From the NCBI GenBank assembly GCA_021800255.1, contig JAJYZC010000035.1, positions 1 through 35,000 of the forward strand: a stretch of 35,000 bases of DNA. The letters are read 5' to 3'. This stretch comes from Acidobacteriota bacterium (GTDB lineage: Bacteria; Acidobacteriota; Terriglobia; Terriglobales; Acidobacteriaceae). This document shows, piece after piece, positions 2,911 through 19,264 of this stretch. The translations under genes were made by a program, and so were the position numbers. The notes beneath the pieces were generated by a model, which did no database searches, was not told where the DNA came from, and saw only the letters and a list, made by a program, of their open reading frames with translations. The number at the start of each line of letters is the position of its first letter. Within the stretch, counting starts at the first letter, position 1.

Positions 2911-3968
2911 GCGGGATTGTCGAGCGGTTCAAATCCCTTAGCCCGTATGACAACTCTGCTGTACCCGGATCGATTCTTAAAGTTGAGGATGACAACTTTG
3001 ATCTGAAGACTGGAAAGCAGCGCCAACTGTGGTGCTACGCGATTTCTGCCAAGCGATATGCGCTCTTTCTCCGCAATGCAAACGGCACACCGGAATTGCT
3101 TAGAAAGGAAAAGAATAACAGTGAGAATCGCTGGTCCGAACATGGCCTTGGTCACTTACTGAATCCGACAGACTCCGAAAGCGATGATCGGGAGTGGATT
3201 GCGCACGTATGGCAGCAAATTCTAAATTCTGCGGTAGGCAGGCGAATTGTTCCAATGTCTTTTCAAGCGACTCCCGCCGTTGGGCGCGTCACCGTGAGCA
3301 ATCCGGCAATTCTTCGCGCGTTGGAGACCTTGAATTCAGGAAAGAACTACCCTGAGCAGATCAAGCCCTTTAATTTCTTGCTGAGTTGCCACGTGAAACC
3401 ATTGGGGCATCCGGTCGGTGTTGATCCTGCGCGCTTTCACCTTATTGCGCCCTATGAGATGAATCCTGCGAAGTGGACCCACCTTGAATGGACAGATCAG
3501 TATTCGGGGCAAGCATTCCGAATTTTCACTTCCGAACATTATTCGAGCAGGCAAACTGCAAGTGTAAAGACGTTCGGAGATGTGATCTCCGAATATGAAT
3601 TCCATGCCGAGCCTAAATGTGCCGACTCAAAAGGGAACACTTGCGAGAAAACTACACGCGGGTTGCTCCAGCGGCGGCACGTCCTGATTGATCGAATCAG
3701 ATTCATTGGGAAGGAATCGAATGAGCTTGAGGAAATCGACGCTGGTTTGATCCATTCCGCAGCCGATGCGTACACTGAGTTCATTGATCCGAGCCGTGAC
3801 GATTGGGCAGTCAAAATCAGGCCAGCATTGAAGCGAATTGTTCTATCCAAACTGCGCAAGGAAACAGGGTTTTCACGCCGGGCGCTCATCAACTGGCGCA
3901 CGGGGAAATCGCGGCCACACCCGCGCAACCAAGGGAGACTCGTTGATTTCTTGCGGCGAAATGGGTGA
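2868..3968 (+). CDS. Family B DNA polymerase, C-terminal part (thumb, KxY motif, terminal HTH), in -1 frame
   Basis: This is the continuation of the polymerase in the -1 frame. It begins where the two frames can be joined at the A run; a GTG at 2880 is the nearest independent start but has no convincing ribosome site. ISAKRYALF (KRY codons 3051-3059) matches the KxY thumb motif of family B polymerases, which contacts the primer strand. It is preceded by ILKVEDDNFD, where family members position the end of the palm. The last about 45 residues (LSKLRKETGFSRRALINWRTGKSRPHPRN...) look like a helix-turn-helix. Joined with the preceding part, the enzyme would be about 1002 residues. No stop codon or other damage is seen across 1.1 kb, which suggests either a very recent frameshift or real recoding. 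Confidence 0.75.
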   Translation, partial: NRAAVVKALSWRQVGGIVERFKSLSPYDNSAVPGSILKVEDDNFDLKTGKQRQLWCYAISAKRYALFLRNANGTPELLRKEKNNSENRWSEHGLGHLLNPTDSESDDREWIAHVWQQILNSAVGRRIVPMSFQATPAVGRVTVSNPAILRALETLNSGKNYPEQIKPFNFLLSCHVKPLGHPVGVDPARFHLIAPYEMNPAKWTHLEWTDQYSGQAFRIFTSEHYSSRQTASVKTFGDVISEYEFHAEPKCADSKGNTCEKTTRGLLQRRHVLIDRIRFIGKESNELEEIDAGLIHSAADAYTEFIDPSRDDWAVKIRPALKRIVLSKLRKETGFSRRALINWRTGKSRPHPRNQGRLVDFLRRNG

Positions 3969-4054
3969 TTTCCTTGATGTGTGGCGTCAACGGTAGCTTT
4001 CCTGGAAAATGTTGAGCGCGCGCGCAGGCCGGGTATTTAGAATGGAATCCGTCC

Positions 4055-15189: not shown

Positions 15190-15933
15190 CTACTGGCTGG
15201 CCTCAACGCGGCGGCCGCGCAGGTCCTGCAAGGGGCGGACGTTCATGGGGAAGAGCCTGGCAAAGGCGTGCAACTGGGAGCGGCTGATGCTCAGTTGCCG
15301 CCGGAGCACGAACCAGCGCACCCCTTCGGTGCAGGGCGGGCGGGTCAGCGATCCCATATAGGTCCAATAGCTGCGGTCGGCGGGCAACAGCCCTGCGGGG
15401 TCCACCATGTCCGTAATCTCTTCCCTTTGCCCCTGAGCGGCCGGCAAGTGCGTCCAGAGCATGGCGAGCGTAGCGTTGGGGAAGTCCTGAGCAGAGTTCA
15501 TCCGCACCGCCAGGATAGCCAGCTTGCCGGCGGCGCTTTGGAACACGAAGTCAACGGCCATGTCAGAGGAAACGCCCTTCACCGCATCCTCACTGGGATC
15601 GTGGAACTCGAAACGCACAAGGCCGTAGCGCACGCCGTTGGCAACCATATAGCTGCCCGGAACCACCTTGACCAATACGGTATGGCCGTCGTTTTCAAGG
15701 GTCACCGGCCCGGCCAGGAAGCTGAACTGGATGGGCTTGAGCGCCGGGTTCAGCACAGGATGGCGGATGTCGATGGGCGACTGCTGCCGGCCGGTGGAGC
15801 AAGTACTGTAGGCGGGGTCGAGCTTGCCCCAGTAAGCTGGGCCCTCCGGGCCCTTGTAACTCCAAGGTGCGTTCTGCGCGGCGGCCGCGGCGGCTACGGC
15901 GAAGATTAGAACGGCAGGTGAAGGAAAGCGCAT
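15190..15933 (-). CDS. Alpha-carbonic-anhydrase homologue with degenerate zinc site
   Basis: A 247-residue exported protein. The start at 15933 is chosen for its GGAGA ribosome site and because it gives a clean signal peptide (to about A19/Q20). The fold is recognisable from WSYKGPEGPAYWGKLDPAY, GRQQSPIDI (49-57) and SYWTYMGSLTRPPCTEGVRWFV. Active alpha enzymes bind zinc with three histidines in FHFH and ExH. Here the first is E109 (FEFH), only H111 is kept, and the third is D128 (MAVDFVF); the usual gatekeeping E before the third ligand is A126 and the following SEH is SED. The product may be catalytically dead, act as a carbonic-anhydrase-related binding protein, or bind another metal through E/H/D. 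It converges with the AsmA gene with an 18-base gap. Confidence 0.88.
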   Translation of the reverse strand: MRFPSPAVLIFAVAAAAAAQNAPWSYKGPEGPAYWGKLDPAYSTCSTGRQQSPIDIRHPVLNPALKPIQFSFLAGPVTLENDGHTVLVKVVPGSYMVANGVRYGLVRFEFHDPSEDAVKGVSSDMAVDFVFQSAAGKLAILAVRMNSAQDFPNATLAMLWTHLPAAQGQREEITDMVDPAGLLPADRSYWTYMGSLTRPPCTEGVRWFVLRRQLSISRSQLHAFARLFPMNVRPLQDLRGRRVEASQ

Positions 15934-16012
15934 GAGATTCTCCGAATTTGCTGGGCGCGTGGGCGTCCGCAAGCACGTTAGTAGTGTCTCAGAAATCTCT
16001 TGCTACCGCATT

Positions 16013-17833
16013 TTATCTTCCGTCCGGCAGGCTCACCGGCCTGGCCTCAAGCAGCGCCTCGATGGTCTGAAGCGACTCGAGCGCCGTTTCCGCCACCGGC
16101 GCGTCCACCTGCACCACCGCCAGCGCTTTCACCGGCTTGGGTCCGCTCCGCTCGCGGCCCAACGCGAAGTTGGCGATGTTCACGCCTTGCTCGCCCAGAA
16201 TGGTGCCGATGCGGCCGATGACTCCGGGCACGTCGTAGTTGCGGCAGACCAGCAGGTTGCCTTCGAGCGGGGCCTCGATGTCGATGCCGTCGAAGGCCAG
16301 CAGGCGGGGCTGCTCGCCGTGGAGGATGGTGGCGCTGGCCCGGCTCTCGCCGGCCGGAGCGTGGAGCACGATGGTCAGCAAACCGGCTGCGCCGCCGTGC
16401 GGGTTTTCCTGCTTCTCTTCATGGATGCGGATGCCGCGCTCTTGGGCCACGGCGGCGGCGTTGATGCGGTTCACATTCTCCGAGCCTTCCAGCAGCCCGG
16501 CGATGGCCGCGTTGCGCACCAGCTCGGTCTTGGCCTCAGCGAGGGCGCCGGCATACACCAGGTGAATGGACTCCACCCCGGCCTTTCCGGCCTGCGCCAA
16601 AAACGACCCCAGCCGTCCGGCCAGGCCGATATAGGGCGCCAGGTGCAGGTACTCCTCGTGGCTGAGGGAGGGAAGGTTCACGGCGTTCTGCACCACGCCC
16701 AGCTTCAGGTACTCGCGTATCTGCATGGCGATCTGCACGCCCACCGCCTCCTGCGCCTCAGCCGTGGAGCCGGCGATGTGCGGGGTCAGAATCACGTTGT
16801 CCATCTCAAAATAAGGCGAGTCCTTCAGTGGCTCGTGGCTGAACACATCGAGCGCCGCGCCCGCCACCTGGCCGCTCTTGAGCGCCGCCGCCAGGGCCGC
16901 CTCATCCACCAGCTCACCGCGGGCGCAGTTGATGATGCGCACCCCCTTCTTCATGCCGGCCAGCGTCTTGGCGTTGATGATGCCCGCGGTTTGCGGCGTC
17001 AGGCCCACGTGCAGCGTCAGATAATCCGCGCGCGCAAAGAGATCCTCCAAAGGGACCAAAGATATGCCGTTCTCTCGGGCCACGGCGGCCGAGACGAAGG
17101 GATCGGCGCCGGTCACTTCCAGGCCAAAGGCGCGCGCGCGCCGGGCCACTTCCAGGCCGACCCGGCCCAGACCCAGGATGCCCAGGGTTTTGCCGCGCAG
17201 CTCCGTGCCCTGCAGCGACTTCTTCTCCCACCTGCCGGCGTGCATGGTCGCGTTCGCCACGATCACTTTGCGGCAGAGCGCGACCATCAGGCAGATGGCG
17301 AGCTCGGCCACGGCCACGGCGTTGGCGCCCGGCGTGTTCATCACCACGATGCCCCGGCGCGTGGCCGCATCGGTGTCGATGTTGTCCACCCCCACGCCGG
17401 CGCGGCCGATCACGCGCAGCTTGGGCGCGTGCTCCAGCAGCGCGTCGTCCACCTGCACCGCGCTGCGCACCACCAGCGCGTCGGCCTCGGCCAGCGCCGC
17501 CGGCAATCCATCGGTCAACTGGTCGTGCGTCACGACTTCCCATCCCGGTTCGGCCTGAAACACCGCCAATGTCGCCGGAGAAACCTTTTCCGCCAGTACG
17601 ATCTTCATCGCAACTCCCCTTTTGCTGTTCTCATACTCGTCAAAGCGGATGCCGTGCTTCTCGCACAACAGGTCGAACATCCGCACCACCGCCGCGTGCG
17701 GCTTGCCTTCGCCGCGTTCATACTTGGTCACCGAGTTGGGATGCACGCCCAGCCGCTCGGCCATCTCGTATTGATAGAGGTCAAGCTGTTTGCGCGCAAT
17801 CAGCAGCTTTTCGCCAAAAGTTAGTTCCGCCAT
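16013..17833 (-). CDS. serA: D-3-phosphoglycerate dehydrogenase with N-terminal XRE helix-turn-helix domain
   Basis: The frame encodes 606 residues. Residues 1-70 form an XRE-type DNA-binding domain (EKLLIARKQLDLYQYEMAERLGVHPNSVTKYERGE). Residues 76-606 are a complete SerA of normal length (531): NAD-binding GLGRVG (221-226), catalytic R305, E334 and H352 (full-length numbering), an intervening ASB-type domain and a C-terminal ACT domain (LLVCRNYDVPGVIGRIGTILGEQGVNIANF). SerA oxidises 3-phosphoglycerate to start serine synthesis, and the ACT domain suggests serine feedback. An internal ATG at 17608 has a strong AAAGGGGAG ribosome site, so SerA alone may be made from the same frame, with no stop codon separating the two parts. 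The class V aminotransferase gene lies 144 bases upstream on the same strand. The fusion or dual-start arrangement is unusual. Confidence 0.92.
   Translation of the reverse strand: MAELTFGEKLLIARKQLDLYQYEMAERLGVHPNSVTKYERGEGKPHAAVVRMFDLLCEKHGIRFDEYENSKRGVAMKIVLAEKVSPATLAVFQAEPGWEVVTHDQLTDGLPAALAEADALVVRSAVQVDDALLEHAPKLRVIGRAGVGVDNIDTDAATRRGIVVMNTPGANAVAVAELAICLMVALCRKVIVANATMHAGRWEKKSLQGTELRGKTLGILGLGRVGLEVARRARAFGLEVTGADPFVSAAVARENGISLVPLEDLFARADYLTLHVGLTPQTAGIINAKTLAGMKKGVRIINCARGELVDEAALAAALKSGQVAGAALDVFSHEPLKDSPYFEMDNVILTPHIAGSTAEAQEAVGVQIAMQIREYLKLGVVQNAVNLPSLSHEEYLHLAPYIGLAGRLGSFLAQAGKAGVESIHLVYAGALAEAKTELVRNAAIAGLLEGSENVNRINAAAVAQERGIRIHEEKQENPHGGAAGLLTIVLHAPAGESRASATILHGEQPRLLAFDGIDIEAPLEGNLLVCRNYDVPGVIGRIGTILGEQGVNIANFALGRERSGPKPVKALAVVQVDAPVAETALESLQTIEALLEARPVSLPDGR
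17596..17625 (-). promoter_or_regulatory. Internal ribosome site and second start for SerA
   Basis: On the minus strand AAAAGGGGAG lies about 6 bases before ATG 17608, where residue 76 of the long frame starts MKIVLAEKV, the usual SerA N-terminus. This is a much better ribosome site than the one before ATG 17833. It supports production of a 531-residue SerA separate from, or in addition to, the XRE-SerA fusion. Confidence 0.6.
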
Positions 17834-17859: not shown

Positions 17860-17997
17860 GTTTTCAGTTTTCAATGGCTGTGACTCCAAAAACAATTCCG
17901 CCTCGATTTACCGGAAACACAACCCGTGACCGCAAAACAATCCTCCAGGCAAAAATCAACTGCCAACTGCCAACTGATCACTGACCACTGACCACGG
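17860..17997. repeat. Intergenic heptad-repeat element (copy 1)
   Basis: Right arm: six consecutive 7-base units from 17956 to 17997 (TCAACTG, CCAACTG, CCAACTG, ATCACTG, ACCACTG, ACCACGG), each with CTG or CGG at the end. Left arm: GTTTTCAGTTTTCA at 17860-17873 is the same kind of heptad (TGAAAAC) in the opposite orientation. The right arm runs over the stop codon of the aminotransferase gene, so it encodes its last residues. Compare the element at 32356-32448. Confidence 0.55.
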
Positions 17998-19153
17998 CTT
18001 TCGCATACACGGCCTGCGCCGCCGCCACGCCCTGCCCGTATTCCACCTTCAGCCCCAGTGTGTGCTTGGCGATGTGCTCCATCGCGCCCAACAGAGCCAC
18101 CGTGTCCAGATAATCGAAGAAACCCAGGTGGGCGATGCGGAAGATCTTGCCCTTCATCTCCCCCTGGCCGTTGGCGATGACCGCCGCGAAGCGCGTCTTG
18201 AGCGCCTTCACCACCGCGCTGGAATCCATTCCTTCGGGCACAGCCACCGCCGTGGCCGCGGCGGCCGGCGACCCAGGCGCAAACAGCGTGAACCCCAGCG
18301 CCACCAGGCCCGCCCGCGTAGCCGCGGCGTTCACCTGGGCGTTGTCTACCAGGGCCTCGCGCCCTTTTTCCAGGTCTCCGCCCGCTTGCCCGGCGATGTA
18401 GTCCAGGGCCGCGCCCAGCCCCGCCACCAGCGCCACCGAAGGCGTATAGGCGCTCTCGGCCTTGGCCGCGTTTTTGCGCTCCTTGCGCAGGTCGAAGTAG
18501 TAGCGCGGATTCTTCGCCGTCTCCATCGCCGCCCAGGCGCGCTCACTCACGCTCAGGTAGGCCAAACCCGGCGGAATCATCACCGCCTTTTGCGACCCGC
18601 CGATCAGAATGTCGATCCCCCAGCCGTCCACGTCGAAGTGCGTCGTGCCCAGCCCGGTGATCCCATCCACGACCAGCAGCGCCCCGGCCTCCTTCACCAG
18701 CTTGGCCACTCCCTCCACGTCGTGGCGCACTGCGGTCGAGGTCTCTGTGGCCTGCATGTAGACGGCTCTGTGCTCCGGCTTGAGCGCCTTGCTTACTTCG
18801 GCCAGGTCGAAGGTCTGGCCGTAGGGAGCCTTCACCACGTCTACCTGGCAGCCGAAGGCCCTGGTCAGGTCCACCCATCGCTCGCCGAACTTGCCCGCCG
18901 TCAGCACCAGCACGCGGTCGCCGGGCGAGGTCAGATTCGAGACCGAGGCCTCCATCGCACCCGTGCCTGAGCTGGCCAGCAGCAGCACATCATTCTTGGT
19001 GCCCACAAAAACCTTCAACTGCGCCAAAACCTTCTGGAACAGGGCGCGAAACTCCGGCGTGCGGTGGTGAATGTCCGCCGCCGCCATGGCAAACTGCGCC
19101 GCCGGAAGCAGCGGCGTTGGACCGGGTGTATAAAGCCTGGTTTTACGAATCAT
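17978..19153 (-). CDS. Class V aminotransferase (serine-pyruvate / alanine-glyoxylate type)
   Basis: A 391-residue PLP enzyme. Start 19153 is preferred over 19174 because AGGAG lies seven bases upstream. YTPGPTPLLP at the N-terminus, SSGTGAMEAS (61-70), D163 in VVDGITGLGT and the PLP lysine K189 in GGSQKAVMIPPG are diagnostic of the AGXT/SPT group. This group moves amino groups between serine, alanine, glyoxylate and pyruvate. Because it lies directly upstream of serA and no serC is visible here, it may serve as the phosphoserine (3-phosphohydroxypyruvate) aminotransferase, as proposed for similar gene pairs in Thermotoga and some archaea; that is inference. Its last codons are built from a heptad repeat array. 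A promoter overlapped by a palindrome lies 80 bases upstream. Confidence 0.9.
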   Translation of the reverse strand: MIRKTRLYTPGPTPLLPAAQFAMAAADIHHRTPEFRALFQKVLAQLKVFVGTKNDVLLLASSGTGAMEASVSNLTSPGDRVLVLTAGKFGERWVDLTRAFGCQVDVVKAPYGQTFDLAEVSKALKPEHRAVYMQATETSTAVRHDVEGVAKLVKEAGALLVVDGITGLGTTHFDVDGWGIDILIGGSQKAVMIPPGLAYLSVSERAWAAMETAKNPRYYFDLRKERKNAAKAESAYTPSVALVAGLGAALDYIAGQAGGDLEKGREALVDNAQVNAAATRAGLVALGFTLFAPGSPAAAATAVAVPEGMDSSAVVKALKTRFAAVIANGQGEMKGKIFRIAHLGFFDYLDTVALLGAMEHIAKHTLGLKVEYGQGVAAAQAVYAKAVVSGQ

Positions 19154-19231
19154 CTCCCATCTCCTCGCGTTCAAACAGAATCATTGCCGGGCGTTGCGCC
19201 CACCGAACAATCAGTAGATCTGGAGCGCAAA

Positions 19232-19263
19232 TCACATAATACACAATTTTGTATCTTATGTGA
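19232..19263. promoter_or_regulatory. 32-bp imperfect palindrome, candidate operator
   Basis: Outer arms TCACATAA (19232-19239) and TTATGTGA (19256-19263) are perfectly complementary, and the inner parts match at most positions (13 of 15 per arm) around a central TT. It covers the promoter -10 and most of the -35, the placement expected for a dimeric repressor site. It is strikingly AT-rich against the surrounding sequence. Confidence 0.6.
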
Positions 19264-19264
19264 A
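19236..19264 (-). promoter_or_regulatory. Sigma-70-like promoter of the aminotransferase-serA unit
   Basis: Read on the minus strand: -35 TTCACA (19264-19259), spacer of exactly 17 bases, -10 TATTAT (19241-19236). It lies about 80 bases before ATG 19153 and is embedded in a 32-bp palindrome. Confidence 0.55.

Follow-up and report, generated by a model that had tools for sequence, protein, structure and literature searches.

The window examined here, a 35,000-nucleotide stretch of DNA from a member of the Acidobacteriaceae, carries an XRE DNA-binding domain fused in frame to 3-phosphoglycerate dehydrogenase (SerA), and we confirm that this fusion is real and kept beyond chance. We consider it probable that the fused protein is a trigger enzyme, with SerA serving also as a dedicated regulator that would repress its own serine operon, and with plain SerA made in addition from an internal start; DNA binding, repression and the role of serine as effector are at present inferred. 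The initial annotation had read the locus in much this way, as a fusion with a dual start that could act as a serine- or NAD-sensing transcription factor, and comparison of related genomes supports that overall reading. Fusions of enzymes with DNA-binding domains show regulators arising from enzymes, and few are so compact: the gain of the XRE head appears to have left the ancestral SerA start inside the frame and to have arrived with one new operator. A direct comparison is possible in this case, as unfused close relatives keep the aminotransferase gene and serA adjacent.

The fusion gene, its spread and its operon

Table 1. Features of the XRE-serA operon in the window
Feature	Position	Strand	Remarks
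XRE::SerA fusion ORF	17833-16013	minus	606 aa
XRE (HTH_3) DNA-binding domain	17636..17833	minus	residues 1-66, helix-turn-helix; five predicted helices
Linker	17609..17635	minus	residues 67-75; length differs among relatives; low model confidence at 69-72
Putative internal Shine-Dalgarno, AAAAGGGGAG	17614..17623	minus	inside coding sequence
Internal ATG, SerA start	17606..17608	minus	coincides with SerA start of unfused relatives
SerA (3-phosphoglycerate dehydrogenase)	16013..17608	minus	complete, residues 76-606; 531 aa + stop
Class V aminotransferase (Aminotran_5)	17978..19153	minus	ATG at 19153; precedes fusion
35-bp operator/promoter element, TTCACATAAGATACAAAATTGTGTATTATGTGATT	19230..19264	minus	four CACA/TGTG half-sites, one imperfect in the window
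-35-like hexamer TTCACA	19259..19264	minus	inside element
-10-like hexamer TATTAT	19236..19241	minus	inside element; 17-nt spacer

The in-frame fusion that had been proposed is borne out by an uninterrupted reading frame, by profile matches to both of its parts and by a junction that is open in every locus where it could be read. Pfam HTH_3 matches residues 13-49 (30.9 bits against a gathering score of 23), and TIGR01327, the NCBIfam phosphoglycerate dehydrogenase equivalog, matches residues 77-601 (554.4 bits against a cut-off of 454). The enzyme part has the 531 residues first attributed to it and retains its catalytic, NAD-binding, intervening and ACT domains, as judged by Pfam. In an alignment of 31 SerA sequences (A2; 22 fused and 9 unfused), R305, E334 and H352, which we take to be the catalytic set, are invariant, as are the ACT residues N532, D534 and N552. 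The enzyme residues of the fused SerA thus appear to be intact, and catalytic activity and tetramer formation are inferred only. The closest solved structures to this part are mycobacterial (1ygy, 3dc2 and 3ddn; the alignment spans residues 3-502 of 531), and CtBP, a relative among the D-2-hydroxyacid dehydrogenases, is also found among its homologues.

The XRE head is modelled by AlphaFold as helices at residues 6-17, 21-28, 32-39, 47-59 and 65-68, with a pLDDT of 74-87 over the first six blocks of ten residues; a conserved alignment of the head (A1) was built from 21 loci. Its best solved relative is the HTH of MqsA (3fmy, E 7.7e-5), and the head does not meet the MqsA family cut-offs of either Pfam (27.2 bits against 30) or NCBIfam TIGR03830 (35.9 against 61.8). 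The arrangement of the domains is poorly predicted in the model of the whole fusion (pTM 0.58, with low confidence in the linker), and structure matches to the whole model, with query TM-scores of about 0.35 at best among the matches listed, are uninformative beyond the enzyme part.

The initial annotation had suggested looking for the same fusion in related genomes, and it is present in three genera of the Acidobacteriaceae. Within the genus of the window (25 sampled genomes, its own included) a match reaching the XRE end was found in 22; the exceptions are two genomes with weak SerA matches only (G003 and G014) and one in which the 5' part is missing (G024). A class-wide sample of 399 genomes gave XRE profile matches in 16, 13 of them in the window's genus and three in genus g22. 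Family-wide, 133 of 150 sampled genomes have a strong SerA match, and this begins at residue 1 in 10 (genera g1, g22 and g138) and at residue 43 or later in the other 123, three of which are 5'-truncated fragments. A scan of 84,980 species genomes, which used the XRE alignment by way of two short peptide patterns and so reaches close relatives only, returned 73 XRE loci, all Acidobacteria by title; isolates among them are Terracidiphilus gabretensis S55, Occallatibacter savannae AB23 and also AB60. On a quick SerA tree of 73 fused and 30 unfused sequences, from which 4 of the 77 fusion loci were left out, the difference between fused and unfused requires one change. Because one change suffices, the fusion looks like a single gain, so far as this tree can tell, in one part of the Acidobacteriaceae.

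A stop codon between the two domains in relatives had been named as an outcome that would refute the fusion, and no such stop was seen. Of 78 distinct XRE loci one (L120) ends before the junction and was dropped from all junction counts; the remaining 77, the window among them, are in frame across the junction without exception, and the frame is kept even though the position of the internal methionine ranges from residue 75 to 84. A lack of translation from the first start had likewise been named as refuting. This is countered, at the level of sequence only, by the low dN/dS of the XRE part and by the retention of its start, the first codon being ATG in 74 of 78 loci with Met or Val one codon later in the other four. 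In 67 comparisons against the window (one XRE value was saturated), median dN/dS was 0.08 for the XRE part, 0.135 for SerA residues 78-390 and 0.174 for SerA residues 391-600. As the XRE value lies below those of SerA, we infer that the head is under purifying selection and is constrained at least as much as the enzyme. The dN/dS and column tests left out nine of the 77 loci with short or interrupted SerA; early stops occur inside SerA in five loci (L074, L095, L096, L101 and L113) and are probably assembly errors.

The aminotransferase gene and serA adjoin in many unfused relatives too, which argues that the pair is older than the XRE head. A profile search of the window's own genome found no SerC above the family cut-off, and the operon's aminotransferase is the sole SerC match in that genome, a weak one (27.4 bits against a cut-off of 443.6); among 14 genomes used as SerC family controls, 11 had some match and four a match above cut-off. 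Its best NCBIfam match is BhcA-like and below cut-off. The class V aminotransferase is probably the phosphoserine aminotransferase of the operon and may stand in for SerC; given that no other candidate scored, the operon is likely to supply the enzymes for steps one and two of serine synthesis. Among fusion loci, 5 to 287 bp separate the aminotransferase from the XRE start. In this gap the window has short arrays of 7-bp tandem repeats (CAACTGC and ACTGACC, 17957-17995), and short arrays of 7-bp repeats are also present in the gap of L093 (AGCTAGA; 3822-3857 and 3949-3994), the units differing between the two genomes scanned. Downstream of the fusion the window encodes an alpha-type (eukaryotic-type) carbonic anhydrase (15190-15972). 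This downstream gene was beside the operon in none of 55 other loci (1 of 56 if the window itself is counted), and the nearest upstream gene in none of 52 other loci with enough flank; little can be drawn from the 0 of 52 counted for the second upstream gene, most of which would fall outside the 4-kb flank.

A phylum scan of 396 genomes did not identify the donor of the XRE domain. No stand-alone XRE gene was seen beside serA in the unfused loci examined. That search covered 15 stretches, in 14 of which both genes are present, 178 to 1380 bp apart (L220 is without the aminotransferase, and the gap of L221 is without any ORF of at least 55 aa); compared with Pfam, ten ORFs from the gaps gave seven TIG domains, three with no family and no HTH. 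A tblastn search with the XRE domain on 59 unfused loci also gave zero matches at E up to 0.1. The small TIG-domain ORFs lie between aminotransferase and serA on the opposite strand (L209, L210, L216-L219 and L222), are 117-155 aa long and have a Cys-rich, GCGYGS-like start. Outside the fusion, the phylum scan gave three weak XRE matches (E 1.3e-8 to 6.1e-7). One of these (L225, G141:C2:363730-363909, E 1.3e-8) is in a 356-codon open frame of an unfused family member and is a possible lead to the donor.

The internal start of SerA

The linker is read from AGC AAA AGG GGA GTT GCG ahead of ATG AAG and, as had been claimed, its codons double as a putative ribosome site, AAAAGGGGAG being found before the internal ATG. 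This ATG is kept in all 77 fusion loci. We favor the possibility that there has been selection at the DNA level for ribosome binding within the coding frame, and that two products are to be expected from it. Our reasoning is that: (i) the third codon before the internal ATG is Gly in 76 of 77 loci and is GGA or GGG in 75 of these 76 (the exception, L046, has GGC), against a SerA background in which Gly codons are 68% GGC and 23% GGA/GGG; (ii) when 46 conserved Gly columns are ranked over the 68 loci whose SerA is nearly complete, this one comes first, with GGA/GGG at 98.5% compared with 70% for the next and a median of 17%; (iii) GGAG stands upstream of the internal start in 64 of 77 loci, as against 8 of 493 other in-frame ATGs and (iv) the duplex with an anti-SD sequence has a mean energy of -9.3 kcal/mol for internal starts, compared with -7.1 for XRE starts and -3.5 for the 493 other in-frame ATGs. 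Thus the suggestion that one frame gives two products stands as regards a conserved start and ribosome site, and the use of both starts in cells remains an inference. In the window the duplex energies are -5.6 kcal/mol for the XRE start and -8.7 for the internal start, and the internal start outscores the XRE start in 66 of 77 loci. Since the XRE start has the weaker ribosome site of the two, the fusion may be the minor product.

An artefact of assembly or annotation, in which two genes were joined by a stop lost in one assembly, can be practically discounted: no data favor it, and the 77 distinct in-frame junctions come from many assemblies, those of the isolates T. gabretensis S55 and O. savannae AB23 included. 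It is harder to dismiss, though we still regard it as quite unlikely, that only the fusion is made, the internal ATG being a leftover of the ancestral SerA start and the ribosome site either a relic or the by-product of a protein-level constraint on a Lys-Gly linker. Lys-Gly is indeed the commonest linker pair preceding the internal Met, and a GGAG-like site is found at the same place in many unfused relatives, so that it may have been inherited. A constraint on the protein would not explain the use of GGA/GGG in 75 of 76 loci despite the preference for GGC, nor the first rank of this column, and the purine-rich stretch stays where the linker residues change (L053 and L005). We therefore retain the reading that both starts may be used.

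A conserved element at the operon promoter

The palindrome noted at 19232-19263 exists and falls inside a 35-bp element, TTCACAAAAACCACAAAANTGTGTATTCTGTGATT, that is conserved in the fusion loci. With the consensus CACA-N5-CACA-N4-TGTG-N5-TGTG, it was found in every one of the 69 fusion loci whose promoter could be read, starting 56 to 153 bp before the aminotransferase; the other nine of the 78 were left out because the aminotransferase start was unreadable or the upstream DNA insufficient. In the window it occupies the stretch from 111 to 77 bp ahead of the aminotransferase ATG. Its dyad correlation is 0.78, the maximum of 5000 column permutations being 0.62. A scan of 1.65 kb for sigma-70-like promoters gave a single match in the window, made up of the two hexamers within the element (Table 1); shuffles average 0.4. 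Promoter function would account for some of the conservation of the operator but is insufficient on its own for the nearly invariant CACA within the spacer and TGTG past the -10 hexamer.

A matrix of the operator scores 32.6 to 60.6 bits in the 69 fusion loci. When 30 aminotransferase loci of the family were scored, the seven fused ones reached 41.5 to 50.6 bits and the 23 unfused ones, drawn from 102 other genomes with a match, -19.8 or lower, so that the operator was present in none of the 23 unfused loci read; L155, which is fused and lies outside the set used to build the matrix, scored 43.3 bits. A scan of 29 same-genus genomes with the core pattern, allowing up to two mismatches, found a single operator site in each of them, 67-151 bp ahead of where the aminotransferase begins, and the reversed control pattern gave none in the same 29 genomes. 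From these comparisons we take the element to be a site dedicated to the operon promoter that, in the loci read, is lacking wherever the XRE domain is lacking. They lend strong comparative support to the earlier guess that XRE-SerA targets the palindrome, and binding itself is still inferred. As fusion and non-fusion are separated by one change on the tree, the co-occurrence of fusion and operator counts as one historical event. A wider regulon was considered and rejected, as the sole further match in the window's own genome needs three mismatches and looks like chance. CRP sites are arranged as TGTGA...TCACA, and a CRP-type site was likewise rejected since the half-sites of the element, TCACA...TGTGA, face the opposite way.

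We also looked at covariation between the XRE domain and the operator over 69 pairs. The strongest of many residue-base links, and picked as such, joins operator positions 7-8 to residue 46, which lies a few residues past the recognition helix region. Among the 66 rows on the tree, TT occupies these positions in 6 of 6 with Gln46 and in 0 of 60 with His46, where AA (56), AT (3) and TA (1) are found instead. The tree has two changes of residue 46, each accompanied by TT; this is the direction that would be expected for direct contact and it is not significant (sign test, p 0.5), two events being unable to reach significance. A covariation of residue 36 with operator base 10, spotted by eye, proved to be only a tendency, and residue 46 is the stronger of the two.

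Working model and known systems

In our working model the XRE head would bind the four half-site element over the -35 and -10 hexamers of the aminotransferase-XRE::serA promoter, and occupancy of the element would keep RNA polymerase off, giving autorepression. Overlap of both promoter hexamers is a usual position for repressor sites, and as the element overlaps both, binding should repress the operon. Phosphoglycerate dehydrogenases are commonly tetramers, so up to four XRE heads on one SerA core could meet the four half-sites. In related phosphoglycerate dehydrogenases the ACT and intervening domains sense L-serine; here they would couple operator binding to the serine level, and the simplest effector that can be inferred is serine, as a corepressor that works by way of the ACT domain. 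The internal start would supply plain SerA, so that the doses of enzyme and repressor differ and mixed tetramers become possible. The model in its full form, a two-start gene for an enzyme and a single-target repressor in which four heads meet four half-sites and in which both the ratio of long to short chains in mixed tetramers and ACT-bound serine set repression, is offered tentatively, as we would put its chances a little short of even. If it is true, serine synthesis would be feedback-inhibited and repressed at the gene level through one sensor in one molecule, and the fusion would make a small, transplantable metabolite-responsive regulator.

Another regulator might instead bind the palindrome, the XRE head serving some other purpose, for example binding elsewhere or only mediating protein contacts. 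With a single change on the tree, a different regulator gained simultaneously could bind the site. We nevertheless think this unlikely: the one site per genome invariably lies by the operon from which the XRE head is made (29 of 29), the window's nearest neighbours are not conserved round the operon (the neighbourhood was not screened for regulators), the half-sites differ from the CRP arrangement, and XRE residue 46 varies with the operator bases. Should the XRE head be the ligand of the site, as we prefer, it could still activate rather than repress, or respond to NAD(H) or the state of 3-phosphoglycerate instead of serine. We hold this to be a real possibility, if a rather unlikely one. The catalytic and NAD-binding parts are intact, and CtBP, which appears among the homologues of the enzyme part, is an NADH-sensing corepressor. 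The NAD-responsive PutA is a precedent (PMC9132996). Against this stand the coverage of both promoter hexamers by the element and the intact ACT domain, and repression with serine as the effector remains our preferred reading.

XRE-SerA would belong to a known class, that of trigger enzymes with a built-in DNA-binding domain, its dual function being inferred. Among the matches listed in open-licence full text, none describes in its title or the opening of its abstract a SerA joined to an HTH domain, of XRE or any other type, which is only weak evidence that no description exists. We have not met before the combination of an intact biosynthetic enzyme with an ancestral enzyme start retained within the frame of the fusion and with one operator dedicated to it. 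Taken singly, the parts have evident relatives. The mycobacterial D-3-phosphoglycerate dehydrogenases (1ygy, 3dc2 and 3ddn) are chains of 528-529 residues without an XRE domain, and the MqsA antitoxin, whose HTH is the best solved relative of the head, is paired with a toxin, whereas the XRE head is fused to SerA. NadR, in which an HTH is fused to NMN adenylyltransferase and a kinase, represses genes of its own pathway; it resembles XRE-SerA as a biosynthetic enzyme with a helix-turn-helix, but enzyme and ligand differ.

The DNA-binding domain of PutA is a ribbon-helix-helix. PutA, a trifunctional proline dehydrogenase with a DNA-binding domain, is a repressor of the genes for proline utilisation, is autoregulatory and switches in response to its substrate and cofactors, and many targets figure in that study (PMC9132996). 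PutA and XRE-SerA are thus alike as metabolic enzymes that carry a DNA-binding domain, and they differ in that PutA is catabolic and has many targets and a domain of another fold, whereas XRE-SerA has an XRE domain, is biosynthetic and has one site per genome. The second product expected from the internal start is a further difference from PutA. BzdR has an N-terminal HTH-XRE joined by a linker to a shikimate kinase-like sensor domain; kinase activity was not detectable in it, and the promoter under its control is one for benzoate degradation. The Q1 chimera rebuilds a bifunctional possible ancestor of it (PMC3602430). BzdR shares with XRE-SerA the order of N-terminal XRE, linker and enzyme fold. 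XRE-SerA is unlike BzdR in that its enzyme residues are intact and it is encoded in its own biosynthetic operon.
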